The notes under the pieces are model-generated. The model worked only from the letters and a program-made list of their open reading frames with translations, did no database searches and was not told where the DNA came from. Positions 3,399-48,609 of a stretch of 50,359 nucleotides of DNA are shown here, piece by piece. The stretch spans positions 2,032 through 52,390 of the forward strand of contig DYLP01000017.1 in the NCBI GenBank assembly GCA_020722005.1. The letters are read 5' to 3'. Source of the stretch: Melioribacter roseus. Its GTDB lineage: Bacteria > Bacteroidota > Ignavibacteria > Ignavibacteriales > Melioribacteraceae. Position numbers and translations under genes: made by a program. Numbering within the stretch: position 1 is the first letter of the stretch; every line of letters starts with the position of its first letter.

Positions 3399-4667
3399 TT
3401 CGCCCGTCAAAAAAATTATTACAGGAATATATTCTATAAAAATCAATAAAGGATATTCCTGCCATAAACCATATAACTGATAATTAATCACGGTAATGAT
3501 AGTTATACTACTTAAAGCAGCGTAAAAAATTCCGCTCAATCTCGGTACAACGGGCAATAAAACAATTAGCCACCCGATGTACCAGGGATGCACAACAGGT
3601 GAAAATAAGAGTAACAATAAGTACGTGTAATAAAGATCAAATTCTATTTTCCTCCTTTTCATAAAAAAATAATAAGCTGTAAATGAAATTGCATAGAGGA
3701 TTAAACAAATCAGTCTCGATTTCTGATTATGCTCGAGGAAAACATTTATTACGTTGAAAATACTACCGTTGAAAGTCCAGTTTCTGGCAAATTTTAGCAA
3801 CGCCTGAAATAAGTCGGGTGTACTTAAATAAGGTATAAATTGAATTGCGAGTATAAAGACGGGAATTAAAGGAAATATGATTTTTCTTTTAATATCCGAT
3901 TCATAAAGAAAAATTGCCGGCAGTGCAATCAAGAAGGCAGGTTTAACCGACAAAGCAAAACCCAAAAATATTAAAGAAATTATTTTGCGTATTGCGTTTT
4001 TATCCGCAGGCTTGAGATAGAACAAAAGAAAGAGTATGAAAAATGTAAATCCGTATCCATCCAGATGAGCGTCGATACCTATATGAATTAAGATTAGAGG
4101 ACACAATGCATAAAGCAAGACGTAGCCTGCGCTCATTTCTCTTATTTTCAACAGGAATAAAGTTCCCGTCACCGTAATCATTTCAAACAGCAACATAAGA
4201 AGTTTTAATCCCCATACTTCTTCACCGCTTATTGAATATCCCAGGTAGAAAAGCCACTGGCTCAGAGGGAAATAGATAGTTTTCATCTCCGGGAAATTTA
4301 CTTTGCCTGGAATAATCGTGCTAGTAAGATGATTTAATTGGCTCGCATTGGGTGGATATAAATAAGGATTAATTCCATTGTATTGAACTTTACCGTCCCA
4401 TATATATCGATATATGTCGTCGCTTCCCAATGGAAAGTTATTAATGAATAAAATTCTGATTAAAACAGCTGCCGTCAGTCCGAAATAAATTGTTTTCCTG
4501 TCAATCTTATACTTAAGTATTATTATGGCAAATGGAAAATAGAGTAACGAGGAAATAAGGGAAATATAATTGAAATGAATAATGTCATAATGAATGAATA
4601 AATAAAAATATAGAACAAGCTGAATAAGAATAATTAATTTGATAGTATGATCTAACGTATTTTTCAT
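3357..4667 (-). CDS. Polytopic GT-C-type glycosyltransferase (mannosyltransferase-like)
   Basis: A 436-residue integral membrane protein with about 10-12 hydrophobic segments spread over its whole length. The early loop 'GSDDIYRYIWDGKVQYNGIN' followed by 'PYLYPP' is the acidic-motif loop of GT-C-fold transferases that use polyprenyl-phosphate sugars, as in DUF2029/MptB-like mannosyltransferases. It probably adds a hexose to a lipid or envelope glycan at the outer face of the inner membrane. The donor and acceptor are not predictable. It is transcribed toward the kinase gene and the two coding ends overlap by 42 bp. There is no operon partner, and the gene is divergent from mannan operon A. 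Confidence 0.75.
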   Translation of the reverse strand: MKNTLDHTIKLIILIQLVLYFYLFIHYDIIHFNYISLISSLLYFPFAIIILKYKIDRKTIYFGLTAAVLIRILFINNFPLGSDDIYRYIWDGKVQYNGINPYLYPPNASQLNHLTSTIIPGKVNFPEMKTIYFPLSQWLFYLGYSISGEEVWGLKLLMLLFEMITVTGTLFLLKIREMSAGYVLLYALCPLILIHIGIDAHLDGYGFTFFILFLLFYLKPADKNAIRKIISLIFLGFALSVKPAFLIALPAIFLYESDIKRKIIFPLIPVFILAIQFIPYLSTPDLFQALLKFARNWTFNGSIFNVINVFLEHNQKSRLICLILYAISFTAYYFFMKRRKIEFDLYYTYLLLLLFSPVVHPWYIGWLIVLLPVVPRLSGIFYAALSSITIITVINYQLYGLWQEYPLLIFIEYIPVIIFLTGELIFYNGGKIYYKN

Positions 4668-38148: not shown

Positions 38149-39447
38149 ATGCTGAAAAGGAATGAAGAAATATTGGATTTTCTTGCCGAAGGGATTTTTA
38201 CAGTCGATAAAAATTTTATTGTAAATTACTTCAATAAAGCTGCAGAAAGGATTACCGGATTTACTCCAGATGAAGTGAAAGGCAGAAAGTGCAAACAAAT
38301 ATTTCAGTCAGATTTATGTATGGACAAGTGTCCTATTGCCGAAGCTCTTTCAATGGGCAAAAATTTGTTTGATCTAAAATCAAAAATCAGGAAGAAGGAC
38401 GGTACTTTAGTTAACGTAAAGTTAAATGTAGGTATACTCAGAGATGAGAATCAGAATCCAATCGGCGGAGTGATAACATTCAGAGACCTCTGTTATTTGG
38501 TCAATAATGAATGCGAAAATTTCGACCATTTCTACGGTATTGTCGGAAATAGTCGCGTTATGACGAATATTTTTAATTTGATTCAGGAAATTGCATATAC
38601 TGATACAAGTGTGTTGATTACAGGTGAAACCGGTACCGGCAAAGAAATGATAGCTAACGCAATTCAGGCTACAAGCAGAAGGAAAAATGAAAAATACATA
38701 AAAGTAAATTGTGCTGTATTGCCTCCTTCCTTGCTGGCGAGTGAATTATTCGGTCACTCCAAAGGAGCTTTTACAGATGCAATAAAAGACAGAATTGGCA
38801 GATTTGAGTTAGCAGATGGTGGGACGATATTTCTTGATGAAATTGCGGAGATGCCGATTCAAATGCAGGCTCAGCTGCTGAGGGTGATTCAGGAAGGGAC
38901 TTTCGAGCGACTTGGAGAATCGATTACGCGCAAGGTAGATGTACGAATTATTGCAGCTACGAATGTCGATATTAAAGAAGCAATAAATGCAGGGAGGTTC
39001 AGAGAAGACCTCTATTACAGATTGAATGTGATTCCGATTGAAGTACCTCCATTAAGAGAGCGTAAGGAGGATATCCCTTTCCTTATTAATCATTTTCTTA
39101 AGAAATACAATCTTATTTATAAAAAGGAAATTAAGAAAATCGAAAAAGATGCCCTCGAAGTTTTAATGGCATATCAGTGGCCAGGTAATATTCGAGAGCT
39201 CGAGAATGTTATCGAATATGCTGTAATTCGGACAAAGAGCGAAGAATCGTTAACGCTTTGCTCGCTGCCTGAATTTATATTCGAAGGAATGACAACTTGC
39301 ATTAAAAAACAGAACCAGAATATAAGTCCCGCCCGTTTGCTTCAACTCCTCGAAGAAAATCGCTGGAACAAGTCGAAAGTAGCTCGCCTTCTTGGGATCA
39401 ATCGGACAACTCTCTGGCGCTGGATGAAAGAGAGCAATCTTATATAA
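38149..39447 (+). CDS. PAS-domain sigma-54-dependent activator (GAFTDA variant)
   Basis: 432 residues. An N-terminal PAS domain (about 5-120) carries a Cys cluster 'CKQIFQSDLCMDKCPIAEAL' that could sense redox state or metal. The AAA+ domain (about 135-370) has Walker A 'GETGTGKEMIANA', Walker B 'IFLDEIAEMP' and '[13 protein letters not shown]'. The sigma-54-contact loop reads GAFTDA rather than GAFTGA. A Fis-type helix-turn-helix ends it ('RWNKSKVARLLGINRTTLWR'). It should activate a sigma-54 promoter without a kinase. A -24/-12 site with two palindromes lies just downstream at 39462-39600, ahead of the TPR and cytochrome genes. Confidence 0.9.
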   Translation: MLKRNEEILDFLAEGIFTVDKNFIVNYFNKAAERITGFTPDEVKGRKCKQIFQSDLCMDKCPIAEALSMGKNLFDLKSKIRKKDGTLVNVKLNVGILRDENQNPIGGVITFRDLCYLVNNECENFDHFYGIVGNSRVMTNIFNLIQEIAYTDTSVLITGETGTGKEMIANAIQATSRRKNEKYIKVNCAVLPPSLLASELFGHSKGAFTDAIKDRIGRFELADGGTIFLDEIAEMPIQMQAQLLRVIQEGTFERLGESITRKVDVRIIAATNVDIKEAINAGRFREDLYYRLNVIPIEVPPLRERKEDIPFLINHFLKKYNLIYKKEIKKIEKDALEVLMAYQWPGNIRELENVIEYAVIRTKSEESLTLCSLPEFIFEGMTTCIKKQNQNISPARLLQLLEENRWNKSKVARLLGINRTTLWRWMKESNLI

Positions 39448-39461
39448 AAACTTCGTTTCAT

Positions 39462-39480
39462 ATGCAACGGTATGTTGCAT
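39462..39480. promoter_or_regulatory. Palindromic site 1 before the TPR/cytochrome genes
   Basis: ATGCAACGGTATGTTGCAT is a perfect inverted repeat (7-bp arms, 5-nt spacer). Its centre is about 115 bp upstream of the GG of the sigma-54 promoter at 39585. It shares the GTTGCAT half-site with the second site at 39520. A likely binding site for the activator encoded just upstream. Confidence 0.55.
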
Positions 39481-39519
39481 CTTTCTAAGTAATGGTAATA
39501 TACAGAGTTAGCATAGAGT

Positions 39520-39533
39520 GTTGCATACGCAAC
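39520..39533. promoter_or_regulatory. Palindromic site 2 before the TPR/cytochrome genes
   Basis: GTTGCATACGCAAC has 5-bp inverted arms (GTTGC/GCAAC) and a GTTGCAT half-site like site 1. Its centre is about 60 bp upstream of the sigma-54 GG element and 55 bp from site 1, the usual arrangement of paired enhancer sites. Confidence 0.5.
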
Positions 39534-39584
39534 TTTTCTCTGATGATTATAGCATCTTTTTATCGTATTAATTGTGCTTTTTTT

Positions 39585-39600
39585 TGGCAAGGAAATTGTT
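39585..39600 (+). promoter_or_regulatory. Candidate sigma-54 promoter of the TPR/cytochrome operon
   Basis: TGGCAAGGAAATTGTT matches TGGCAC-N5-TTGC closely, with exactly 10 nt between GG (39586-39587) and the -12 dinucleotide, here GT instead of GC. The predicted start near 39611 rules out the earlier GTG start of the TPR gene and favours an ATG further on. Confidence 0.6.
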
Positions 39601-39642
39601 TTAATCAAAGGCATGAGCGAGATGTTAGGAAATTATCATTTT

Positions 39643-40053
39643 ATGATTCGGGATTACTATTCTGCCTTAAACGAGCTGGAGCAAGCTCTGGATAAAGATC
39701 CCGAAAACAAATTAATCAGGAAAAAGCTGATTATCTGCCTGACGCAGGTAGGGAAAGTTAGAGAAGCTTTTAATCAATTTTATTTGCTAATCAATGAGGA
39801 TGTAGAGATAATAATAAATACAAGGCCCGACTGGGAAGATTGTCCCTGTCCGCATTTGGTAAAAAAAATCGAAAAAGATGAAATCCCGACAGAAAATATG
39901 CTAGAAAAATATTTACAACTCGGAATGCTCTGGCTCTACTGCGATGCAAATGAATCGGTCGAAAATTTTAAAAATGCACTCAAGCTAACTGCTGACGATA
40001 GATTGCTACACGTAATAAAAATAATAGAACCGTACACCAAACTTAACAATTAA
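39643..40053 (+). CDS. TPR-like protein preceding the cytochrome
   Basis: 136 residues from the ATG at 39643. In-frame alternatives are a GTG at 39574 and ATGs at 39613 and 39622. I chose 39643 because the predicted sigma-54 transcript starts near 39611, TAGGA lies upstream, and the first recognisable helix starts there. 'DYYSALNELEQALDKDPENK' and 'LIICLTQVGKVREAFNQFYL' form a tetratricopeptide-like helix pair. A Cys/Pro/His patch 'DWEDCPCPHLVKKIE' follows, then another helix pair. No signal peptide. It may help maturation or regulation of the cytochrome; the exact role is unknown. Confidence 0.7.
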   Translation: MIRDYYSALNELEQALDKDPENKLIRKKLIICLTQVGKVREAFNQFYLLINEDVEIIINTRPDWEDCPCPHLVKKIEKDEIPTENMLEKYLQLGMLWLYCDANESVENFKNALKLTADDRLLHVIKIIEPYTKLNN

Positions 40054-40067
40054 TAAGGAGAAACGAT

Positions 40068-41177
40068 ATGCCTAAAGAATTAACAAGAAAAGAATTTTTG
40101 TCGAATACCTCCAAATATGCTATCGGTGCAATAGCAGGTGTGGCTGGACTGAATGCATTATCGGGAGGTAAAATTTTAGCAAATTCGAAGACGGCAACCT
40201 GGCCCTGGCCTTATGTAGCGCTGGATCCTGAAGATGTGCGTCTCCGCGCTCATCATTTTTATTGGAACGATATGGATTGCTGCTCTGGAGTATTTGGTGG
40301 GCTTGTAGATGCGTTAAAAGAAAAAATCGGTGATCCCTGGACTAATATGCCTATTGAAGTAATGCTATTCGGTAGAGGTGGTGGTGCAGGCTGGGGCACC
40401 CTTTGTGGTACTATTAACGGAGGAGCGGCTCTTATCAGTTTGGTGGTCTCCAAAGCAGATTCCGGAAAATTAATTAATGAGCTGTGGGGCTGGTACTGCA
40501 GTGAAAATCTGCCGTCGGATGCTGCAAACCAAGCCAATTATATCGATAAGAAATATGAGGGATCGCTTCCGCAATCAGTATCAGGCAGCCCGCTTTGCCA
40601 CGCTTCGGTTTCACAATGGTGTATGATTGCCAAGAAAAAGGTAAGCGATGTTGAAAGAAAAGAAAGATGTGCTCGTTTAGCTGGAGATACAGCTGCTAAA
40701 ACAGCAGAAATATTAAATGCATACTTTGCAGGTACATTTACTTCTACATATGTAACAAATGATTATGCTGCTCAATGCCAGACATGCCATGGACCTGCTG
40801 CATTCAATACAGTTATGACCCAGATGGATTGCGAACCGTGTCACGGTGATCCTCACAGTGTCACGGGATTAGTTGAATCGGAAGGTTCGATTCCTCCGGA
40901 TTATCAATTATCGCAAAATTATCCGAACCCGTTTAATCCATCCACCAAAATTCAATTTGCTATACCCAAAAATGAGAAGGTATCAGTAATTGTTTATGAT
41001 ATTATGGGACAGGAAGTCAAAAGACTTGTTGACCATGAATTACTGAATCCCGGCAAATACACTGTTGAATGGAACGGCACAGATAATTTCGGTAAGAAAG
41101 TTACAAGCGGTATCTACTTTGCACGAATGACCGCAGGACAATATCAATTCACCCGCAAAATGAACCTTGCAAAATAA
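40068..41177 (+). CDS. Exported split-Soret-type di-heme cytochrome with T9SS sorting tag
   Basis: 369 residues in three parts. (1) A Tat-like leader 'LTRKEFLSNTSKYAIGAIAG' (RK instead of RR). (2) A body with the C_GCAxxG_C_C-type pattern ('MDCCSGVFGGLVDALKEKIG', 'GWGTLCGTINGGAALISLVV', 'SPLCHASVSQWC'), followed by two heme sites CQTCH and CEPCH near residues 238-263, as in split-Soret cytochrome c. (3) From about residue 280, a type IX secretion C-terminal domain starting 'YQLSQNYPNPFNPSTKIQFA' and ending in 'KMNLAK'. This predicts an electron-transfer protein delivered to the cell surface. AAGGAG precedes the ATG. It is the end of the sigma-54-controlled module. Confidence 0.88.
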   Translation: MPKELTRKEFLSNTSKYAIGAIAGVAGLNALSGGKILANSKTATWPWPYVALDPEDVRLRAHHFYWNDMDCCSGVFGGLVDALKEKIGDPWTNMPIEVMLFGRGGGAGWGTLCGTINGGAALISLVVSKADSGKLINELWGWYCSENLPSDAANQANYIDKKYEGSLPQSVSGSPLCHASVSQWCMIAKKKVSDVERKERCARLAGDTAAKTAEILNAYFAGTFTSTYVTNDYAAQCQTCHGPAAFNTVMTQMDCEPCHGDPHSVTGLVESEGSIPPDYQLSQNYPNPFNPSTKIQFAIPKNEKVSVIVYDIMGQEVKRLVDHELLNPGKYTVEWNGTDNFGKKVTSGIYFARMTAGQYQFTRKMNLAK

Positions 41178-46504: not shown

Positions 46505-46974
46505 TGAAAAACTTAAAGCTTGTGACGGCTGTTGTTTCATTTATTTTATTAACGATAACAGTTAAGACTTCAGCTCAAATGAGCAGTTATGATTCCACAT
46601 TAGCAAAACAGCTTGGCGCCGATCAATACGGTATGAAACAATATGTAATGGTGTTTCTTTACAGTGGCGACGTCAGAATTGAAGATGAGGCGAAACGAAG
46701 TGAAATTCAAAAAGCTCACCTGAAAAATATCACAAAACTTGCAGAAGAAAAAAAATTAATTTTGGCAGGACCTTTTCTGGATAATGGTGAGCCGAGAGGA
46801 ATTTTCATTTTGGATGTCGAGTCGTTGGATGAAGCAAAACAACTTACCGAATCCGACCCCGCTGTTAAAGCAGGCATTCTAAGAATGGAATTAAAACCAT
46901 GGTACGGATCCGCCGCAGTTATGATGATACCGGAAATCCACTCCAGATTAAGCAAGGTAAATATTGCAGATTAA
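46504..46974 (+). CDS. Exported YCII-domain protein
   Basis: 156 residues with a signal peptide (cleavage near 'TSAQ', residue 24). The mature part is a YCII-related fold: 'KQYVMVFLYSGDVR', 'HLKNITKLAEEKKLILAGPF' and 'GIFILDVESLDEAKQLTESD'. YCII proteins are small, often with unknown enzymatic roles; an exported one is less common. It is coupled to galT by TAATG but has no obvious place in galactose use. Its stop overlaps the stop of the convergent sigma-54 regulator. Confidence 0.82.
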   Translation: MKNLKLVTAVVSFILLTITVKTSAQMSSYDSTLAKQLGADQYGMKQYVMVFLYSGDVRIEDEAKRSEIQKAHLKNITKLAEEKKLILAGPFLDNGEPRGIFILDVESLDEAKQLTESDPAVKAGILRMELKPWYGSAAVMMIPEIHSRLSKVNIAD

Positions 46975-48455
46975 GATATCCCGAGTTTTTTCATCTTGCT
47001 CTGCAAAGTTGTCGGTTTTAGTTTTAAAATGGAAGCAGCACCGTCTGGACCATAAATTTTTCCATTCGATTTTTTGAGAGCTTTGAGTATAATTTTTTTT
47101 ACTTCTTCGTCAAAGGGATCTACCGTGTTGTCTCCTTCATTTGAATTGTTTTTAATTTCTTCATGTTCAAAAATAATATGCTCTGGTTTTATTGCACCAT
47201 AATTGCACAAAATGATTGCTCGTTCTAAGGTATTCTGAAGTTCACGAACATTGCCGTGCCAATAATAATTTTTGAGTTTGTTTAATGCTTCTTCTGAAAG
47301 AGATATATTCGATTTGTTGAGCTTTTTCCCCAATTTTTCTATAAAGAAGTTTGCCAGCAAAAAAATATCATCTTTTCGTTCTCTGAGAGGAGGAAGTTTT
47401 ATTGGAAATACATTAAGCCGATAATACAAATCTTCCCGGAATTTCCCTTCTTTTACTTTTTCAAGCAAGTCAGCGTTGGTGGCGCAAATGATTCTTACAT
47501 CGGATTTAATTGTTTTCTCGCTGCCTAGTCTTTCGAAGGTACCTTCCTGGATTGCGCGTAATAATTTCGGTTGTATTTCAAAAGGAAGGTCGGCAATCTC
47601 GTCCAGGAATAAAGTGCCGCCGTCGGCAAGTTCAAAACGTCCGCGCCTCTGCGACACCGCTCCGGTAAAGGCACCTTTTTCGTGTCCGAATAATTCGCTC
47701 TCAGCTAGATTATAATTCAGAGCTGAACAGTTGAGTGTAATAAACGGTTTGTCGAAACGGTTTGAAAGAGCGTGAATTGCCTTTGCAACCTCCTCTTTAC
47801 CAGTGCCGGTTTCGCCAAGTATCATTACGTAAGATTCCGTAGGGGCAGCCAGTTTAATCTTTTCGATTACCTGAATCCATTTTTGCGATTTACCTATTAA
47901 GCCTTCGAGTACGGAGGATACGTCGCCCAATAAAGAATTTCTTTCGTAAATCAATGTTTGTTTTTCATTCAATAGAGAATCGTTCAGGATCGATTGTGCA
48001 AGTGCCAGAGAAATAAGTTTCGACAATGTGTTGGTAAGATTGACCCTGGTCGGAGTAAACATGTCACACTGTCGATGATCGAGCGTCATTAAACCGAGTA
48101 TATTGCCATGAATTTTTAAAGGAGCAAGCATGCATGAATGCCCTAACGGAAGCTCGATAACTCCTTTGTAAGTATCCTCATAATGGGGATCGTTCGACTC
48201 CTCAACTAATTTTACGTTTCCGGATATAAGAACATCCCTGATGTCCATCCTTTTTTTGAGGTCAATTTCAAAATTGTAGATTCCATCGGTTACAAGCGGT
48301 CCCTTTGCATAACGAACTTTCAATTTATCGTCACCTTCACGACTCAATATAACGGCAAGTTCATAAGGAACTATTTCCTGAATAGCATCAAGCAAGATGT
48401 CCATCGTAACTGCTGGAGTTAAATAACTGATTGTGTTTAATTCCAAATCATTCAT
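46971..48455 (-). CDS. GAF-domain sigma-54-dependent activator
   Basis: 494 residues from the ATG at 48455, preferred over the GTG at 48464 because a GGTGA ribosome site lies 5 bp upstream. The N-terminal GAF-like domain (about 10-160, 'HSCMLAPLKIHGNILGLMTL') is followed by an AAA+ domain with 'GETGTGKEEVAKAI', intact 'GHEKGAFTGAVSQRRGRFEL', 'LFLDEIADLP' and a short Fis-type end 'ILKLKPTTLQSKMKKLG'. NorR-like architecture suggests sensing of a small molecule or redox state. It is divergent from the Dps-like and peroxiredoxin genes, which are its most likely targets. Confidence 0.9.
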   Translation of the reverse strand: MNDLELNTISYLTPAVTMDILLDAIQEIVPYELAVILSREGDDKLKVRYAKGPLVTDGIYNFEIDLKKRMDIRDVLISGNVKLVEESNDPHYEDTYKGVIELPLGHSCMLAPLKIHGNILGLMTLDHRQCDMFTPTRVNLTNTLSKLISLALAQSILNDSLLNEKQTLIYERNSLLGDVSSVLEGLIGKSQKWIQVIEKIKLAAPTESYVMILGETGTGKEEVAKAIHALSNRFDKPFITLNCSALNYNLAESELFGHEKGAFTGAVSQRRGRFELADGGTLFLDEIADLPFEIQPKLLRAIQEGTFERLGSEKTIKSDVRIICATNADLLEKVKEGKFREDLYYRLNVFPIKLPPLRERKDDIFLLANFFIEKLGKKLNKSNISLSEEALNKLKNYYWHGNVRELQNTLERAIILCNYGAIKPEHIIFEHEEIKNNSNEGDNTVDPFDEEVKKIILKALKKSNGKIYGPDGAASILKLKPTTLQSKMKKLGIS

Positions 48456-48480
48456 TCTGTTCACCGATTAATAGTTGATA

Positions 48481-48588: not shown

Positions 48589-48609
48589 TGGCATTTATTT
48601 TGATATAAT
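48589..48609 (+). promoter_or_regulatory. Possible promoter of the Dps/peroxiredoxin genes
   Basis: TGGCATTTATTTTGA has a perfect TGGCA -24 element and the right spacing, but GA instead of GC at -12. An alternative reading is a sigma-70-type -10 box, TATAAT at 48604-48609. Either start would leave a short leader before the GGAGG site at 48640. Confidence 0.35.

Follow-up and report, generated by a model that had tools for sequence, protein, structure and literature searches.

In the window, by which we mean the whole analysed stretch of 50,359 nucleotides from Melioribacter roseus, the region between a gene for an enhancer-binding activator and a TPR gene is very probably a dedicated sigma-54 control region, with operators bound by that activator and a near-leaderless TPR transcript. 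The gene order, all on the forward strand, is activator (38149-39447), a 165-bp intergenic stretch, TPR gene (39613-40053) and a homologue of split-Soret cytochrome c (40068-41177), in a genome of 2.66 Mb and 79 contigs. As the initial annotation had it, activator, sites, promoter and target are contiguous, covering 3.03 kb from the activator start to the target end. Its proposal of a sigma-54 control region is borne out by relatives, in which activator-linked operators, promoter and target recur jointly, and by the presence of an encoded RpoN (TIGR02395, 443.5 bits, above the cut-off in a genome search). Sequence and comparison give the layout and how far it is conserved, the operator type by clade and the promoter-to-ATG spacing. 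Binding, the start site and leaderless translation are what we infer. The activator encoded from 38149 would bind two GTTGCA-type operators just past its own stop codon and, bound to DNA, would loop to the RpoN-polymerase held at 39585-39600. A signal sensed by the PAS domain would start the transcript at about 39611. This transcript would carry at most a few nucleotides before the AUG at 39613, the TPR protein being translated from a nearly leaderless mRNA, and the downstream cytochrome gene would use its own Shine-Dalgarno sequence.

The activator (432 aa) has a sigma-54 AAA+ domain (Pfam PF00158, E 5.8e-71), a PAS domain (PAS_9, 2.7e-15) and a C-terminal Fis-type HTH (HTH_8, 6.2e-11), as is expected of an enhancer-binding protein, and the Pfam matches agree with the early reading of an activator with a Cys-containing PAS domain directly upstream. 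It falls under the cut-off for every one of the 25 NCBIfam families listed. A PrdR-type proline reductase regulator was considered and rejected (NF041552, 360.6 bits against a cut-off of 795). The PAS cysteines are arranged as Cys48-X8-Cys57-X3-Cys61 followed by Pro (38290-38331, +), and this CX8CX3CP pattern is conserved in 70 of the 72 full-length activators; L069 is without the middle Cys and L058 without the Pro. The same genome has 19 activator matches, 15 of them strong; among the 12 strong matches whose frames were read (L214 being doubtful), CX8CX3C occurs only in the window's activator. That the signal is redox is a guess; redox or a sulfur or metalloid species would fit both the Cys pattern and some of the targets. 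The activator model is poor in the AAA+ domain (mean pLDDT 54) and gives no basis for a geometry of the cysteines.

The sigma-54 loop of this activator is GAFTDA (38764-38781, +) instead of GAFTGA. Counted across 77 activators, GAFTDA is found in 68, GAFTSA in 2 and GAFTGA in 1, while 6 are unread by the pattern (68 of 71 readable). Another activator of the same genome (L219) also carries GAFTDA. In the accessible text of PMC2941729, the NorR variant G266D, in which the second Gly of GAFTGA becomes Asp, fully escapes repression by the sensor domain and stays active. The activators studied here show the same Gly to Asp change in the loop. Unlike in NorR, however, Asp is the natural state in 68 of 71 readable activators; the sensor also differs, being GAF in NorR and a PAS domain with three Cys here.

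Re-checking the sequence confirmed where the palindromes and the promoter had been placed. Palindrome 1, ATGCAACGGTATGTTGCAT (39462-39480, +), is contained in operator 1 (39455-39480, +), which reads as three half-sites, GTTTCA at 39455, TGCAAC at 39463 and GTTGCA at 39474, and thereby refines the palindrome first described. Operator 2 is identical with palindrome 2, GTTGCATACGCAAC (39520-39533, +), and its arrangement and distance to the promoter are the same at L056, from the other genome of the genus. The 55 bp originally given between the palindromes is the centre-to-centre distance; the gap between them is 39 bp. In the 2.66-Mb genome, the exact dyad TGCAAC-N5-GTTGCA has a single occurrence, at this site, against none of the reversed control pattern; for GTTGC-N4-GCAAC, the window contains one occurrence where 0.02 are expected. 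The looser 14-bp motif GTTGCATANGNAAC has two exact genome matches, both at this locus, which are not independent evidence because the motif was derived from these two sites. A composite pattern, an inverted GTTGC pair followed by GG-N8-TTG, matches the genome at this locus and at one place on C48. Among 15 scanned loci with one-mismatch relatives of the 14-bp palindrome (L004-L018), none has a -24/-12-like element together with a half-site pair; 3 of the 15 have a -24/-12-like element scoring at least 16 with a single exact half-site upstream. Conservation of the palindromes in relatives, on which the initial annotation had made its reading depend, is found: an exact GTTGCA/TGCAAC is present, once or more, in all 20 class-1 intergenic stretches, that of the window among them.

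Palindrome 2 and the TTTTCTCT behind it together also score like a terminator hairpin. Theoretically, palindrome 2 and its T-rich tail may be the terminator of the activator gene, with palindrome 1 as a stem in the same RNA. We regard this as most improbable. Although GTTGCATACGCAAC-TTTTCTCTGA has a terminator-like score (1 such hit, with 0.3 expected), the stem is just 5 pairs long, folding of the 101-nt stretch is barely better than that of shuffled sequences (z -1.2), and in the H/Y clade described below the half-sites are tandem at all 12 loci and form no such stem.

The putative sigma-54 element between operator 2 and the TPR gene, TGGCAAGGAAATTGTT (39585-39600, +), has a single occurrence in the genome and similar elements in relatives. 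The sigma-54 promoter features are found, that is, GG at -24, GC at -12, fixed spacing and conservation upstream; the -12 reads GT at the window (T, not C) and GC in a number of relatives. Over the 20 class-1 stretches the element is mostly TGGCA, and also CGGCA, AGGCA or TGGTA. Since the motif TGGCA-N6-TTG is not rare by chance (3 in the window against 1.26 expected), the element alone is weak evidence, and its weight rests on conservation. Transcripts from sigma-54 promoters usually start 12 nt downstream of the -12 base, which here is 39599. The predicted start is therefore 39611 (+), leaving a predicted leader of 2 nt before the ATG at 39613. This start, already proposed in the initial annotation, agrees with the conserved spacing in relatives, where the ATG lies 11-15 nt past the -12 base in 50 of the 53 loci at which the TPR gene comes first. 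The narrow spacing is not built into the count, because the promoter was picked by score across a 112-bp range before the ATG. The promoter of these loci was sought within 120 bp of the ATG, except in L048 and L060. The three outliers are L048 (185 nt), L060 (488 nt) and L148 (41 nt). In L060 a further element lies 15 nt from the ATG, and L148 was first given a poor element because the search was limited to 120 bp, a better one lying 112 nt off. Where another gene comes first (24 loci), its start is 27-53 nt from the promoter in 19; 2 loci have a start listed at 27 or 30 nt and an additional one at 6 nt, and the search found none in the other 3.

Two of the outlying loci deserve description. 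At L048 (1884-2256) there are about 170 extra bases between the -24/-12 element and the TPR start, and an MSE-like start stands directly behind the promoter, which suggests that the extra bases may be an insertion. At L060 (oriented, about 3798-4451), a second, truncated TPR start, which has operator-like sites and a -24/-12 element of its own, lies between the activator and the TPR gene, as if the promoter and the gene start had been duplicated.

The claim that the TPR gene begins later than its longest frame, at ATG 39613 rather than GTG 39574, holds up in the alignment. Following this ATG, conservation is codon-like in 50 TPR-first loci including the window's, variation falling mainly at third codon positions, and the N-terminus behind the -24/-12 element in relatives is ATG-(S/N)-E-M-L. 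A piece of Shine-Dalgarno sequence precedes the cytochrome gene in 19 of 20 class-1 loci and the TPR gene in 2 of 20. The TPR gene is without one in 51 of 53 TPR-first loci, and the contrast with the cytochrome gene loses some of its force because the same is true in 19 of the 24 loci where the TPR gene comes last. From the promoter-to-ATG spacing an almost leaderless TPR mRNA is predicted. Alternatively, the circuit may work as described and the TPR mRNA may still have a normal leader, through an upstream start or read-through from the activator gene. The two genes are on one strand and only 165 bp apart, some in-frame upstream start exists in 17 of 50 TPR-first loci, and the absence of a Shine-Dalgarno piece says little given that it is usual even for a TPR gene in last position. 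However, the 11-15 nt spacing in 50 of 53 loci and the onset of codon-like conservation at ATG 39613 argue against it, and we consider a normal leader unlikely. A conserved near-leaderless sigma-54 transcript would, to our knowledge, be unusual. The available text of PMC3616915 gives separate counts of leaderless transcripts (171) and RpoN motifs (112).

The TPR protein has 146 aa and a DCPCP motif (39613-40053, +). Its TPR_19 score in Pfam, 24.5 bits, is just below the 25-bit cut-off, and its AlphaFold2 model is helical with pLDDT 88. A Foldseek search of the PDB with this model returned generic TPR domains, the best at E 0.018 and none below 0.001. The protein could act in feedback on the activator or in cytochrome export. 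The following gene (40068-41177, +) encodes a protein with two CXXCH and a C-terminal T9SS sorting domain (TIGR04183, 35.1 bits). It is homologous over residues 45-261 (E 8.5e-36) to PDB 1h21, which we take to be the split-Soret cytochrome c of Desulfovibrio desulfuricans, and it likewise has two CXXCH. It differs from that protein in the T9SS tail, the TPR operon and the score, 169.9 bits with NF047622 against an equivalog cut-off of 400 bits, and for this last reason is classed as a split-Soret homologue and not a member; none of the 395 sampled genomes of the phylum reaches that cut-off. The N-terminus of the cytochrome (window 40068-40180) contains TRKEFL, Tat-like with Lys for the second Arg and similar in relatives, in addition to the T9SS tail at the other end.

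The split-Soret family is matched at E 0.001 in 26 of the 395 phylum genomes. Apart from the window's, there are 25 such loci, 16 with a TPR gene in front and 9 without TPR gene and activator. The activator is also present in 15 of the 16 TPR-led loci, the sixteenth (L067) ending at a contig edge. Three further triads come from named genomes: L046, L047 (with a cut activator) and L048. Four of the loci without the TPR/activator pair (L050, L055, L062 and L072) have the split-Soret gene directly behind a MarR-family match, and here the cytochrome may be controlled by a different type of regulator. A search with the TPR alignment found the TPR gene in 78 of 164 genomes of the order; in the phylum sample it is present in 29 of 395 genomes, all among the 40 of the same order and none among the 355 others. 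The distinct TPR matches number 93, fragments among them, and 78 have an activator upstream; activator and TPR gene together form a cassette that occurs in two families of the order.

The cassette adjoins genes with 2 to 15 CXXCH in 73 of 77 cases. At the TPR-first loci, the next gene has at least 2 CXXCH in 49 of 53 and a T9SS-type tail pattern in 48 of 53; at all 24 TPR-last loci, the activator and the TPR gene are separated by a gene that has 8-10 CXXCH. Neighbours include, at L124, a multihaem T9SS protein and, at L121, a protein with 10 CXXCH that is followed by one with a rhodanese domain. The rhodanese, together with a weak ExtM-like similarity (27.6 bits against a cut-off of 800), is a hint of sulfur or metalloid chemistry. 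The target of the switch had initially been given as the TPR-cytochrome genes. This is supported at the window; across relatives, by contrast, the constant partner is the TPR gene and not the cytochrome type. To judge from sequence, the same switch precedes other cytochrome genes too, a point absent from the initial annotation.

The recognition helix of the window's activator is N-R-T-T-L-W-R (39400-39420, +) in the activator alignment and was tabulated against the operators. The comparison set consists of 77 activators, including near-identical pairs such as L061/L158. Duplicates (L045 of L073, L049 of L063), TPR matches with an internal stop and 14 TPR loci without an activator in reach, several of them at contig ends, were left out of the counts. 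In a motif-free count, the most enriched hexamer was GTTGCA for activators with N/D at one helix position (125 against 7.3 expected) and GTTTCA for those with G (134 against 7.2); the largest count in 100 shuffles was 14 for both hexamers. GTTGCA prevails in 36 of 39 N/D activators, the exceptions being L058 (Asn), with more GTTTCA than GTTGCA, and the ties L156 and L159. GTTTCA prevails in 36 of 37 G activators, with L173 a tie, and is in excess for the single Ser activator. A dyad with an 11-bp half-site offset is found at 15 of 27 N/D-W loci and 33 of 38 G/S-W loci, and in the clade where H/Y replaces W a 10-bp tandem repeat of half-sites is found at 12 of 12. In a tree of 74 activators with the HTH removed (three short activators excluded), the N/D-to-G and W-to-H/Y helix switches each fall on one branch, so that the correlations count as two events, not 77. 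Operator type changes twice on the tree, the second change being L058; the tree test of N/D-to-G against operator has 1 independent pair and no power.

The sites follow the activator also when the target differs: L126 and L146, before 8-CXXCH genes, have N/D activators and keep GTTGCA, while L124, L149 and L150, before 7-CXXCH genes, have G activators and GTTTCA. These data support the view that each activator binds its neighbouring sites, a residue code not being proved. It could be argued that a different regulator binds the palindromes, with the neighbouring activator acting elsewhere. Adjacency by itself is no proof of a cognate pair, and 4 of the 9 split-Soret genes without the TPR pair are those behind a MarR-family match. 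However, the operator type tracks the activator clade across several kinds of target, and the only exact dyad of the genome is located beside this activator; we consider such a regulator very improbable. Among 8 chosen genomes, the exact GTTGCA dyad occurs in 5, being at the module in 4 (G000, G188, G074 and G148) and elsewhere in G497, and is absent from G019, G393 and G082; there is one control match, in G074. The exact GTTTCA dyad, TGAAAC-N5-GTTTCA, is found at 11 places in 7 of the 8 genomes chosen for it, against 4 control places. Four of the 11 are in the stretch separating an activator from its operon (G236, G184 and two in G066), one precedes an activator gene by about 50 bp (G035, C19) and 6 are elsewhere or unexamined. 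For the G group, specificity rests on position and not on rarity, because the exact dyad is not confined to modules. The G035 dyad (L120, G035:C19:12331-12347) could serve self-control of the activator.

The window's circuit would work like those of the NtrC/NifA type, with which it shares the AAA+ activator domain, the Fis-type HTH and paired operators upstream of the -24/-12 element, all testable features being found apart from the loop variant. The differences are the GAFTDA loop, the 10-bp tandem half-sites of the sister clade and the ATG 11-15 nt from the -12. We treat the family as a variant of that type because of the tandem operators and the predicted missing leader. Activators adjoining operons, with predicted operators and promoters, are described in the available text of two studies of enhancer-binding protein regulons, in Desulfovibrio vulgaris (PMC4641369, with DVU3142 for an electron transport system) and in Clostridiales (PMC6615313, where PAS is common in these proteins), and the present locus shares this layout. 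The main text of the former does not contain Soret, C_GCAxxG, TTGCA or TGCAA, and that of the latter does not contain TTGC, GCAA or GCAxxG. Our literature search found no paper combining Ignavibacteria, cytochrome and sigma54, or Melioribacter and split-Soret; the main text of the Melioribacter roseus multi-omics paper (PMC5492636) has no split-, multiheme-, diheme- or tetratricopeptide-words.

With slightly less than even confidence, we suggest a broader reading, in which an Ignavibacteria-specific cassette, a GAFTDA activator with a three-Cys PAS domain plus a leaderless TPR gene, has moved before several exported cytochromes, the helix and the operators changing together. The targets would be split-Soret, hepta/octahaem, 15-haem and decahaem plus rhodanese proteins, and the changes would amount to one of base (GTTGCA to GTTTCA) and one of geometry (dyad to tandem or the reverse). 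A layout recurring with several different cytochromes looks like a reusable switch and not a one-off. It would be a dedicated on-switch, with exact testable sites, for exported cytochromes in a hard-to-work-with group that we infer is often linked to extracellular electron transfer. The 77 activator-operator pairs also provide a natural data set on the Fis-type helices of sigma-54 activators, their half-site choice and the tolerance of tandem versus inverted sites.

Two minor observations concern the surroundings. At L119, L121, L127, L154 and L155, the TPR gene is followed by a membrane-protein-like gene and haem-synthesis-like genes (hemA and hemC, by eye). In the window itself, 46974-48464 (-) encodes another sigma-54 activator (L210), which has a GAF domain and a canonical GAFTGA loop, and a TGGCA-N6-TTG element is located at 48589 on the strand opposite to it.
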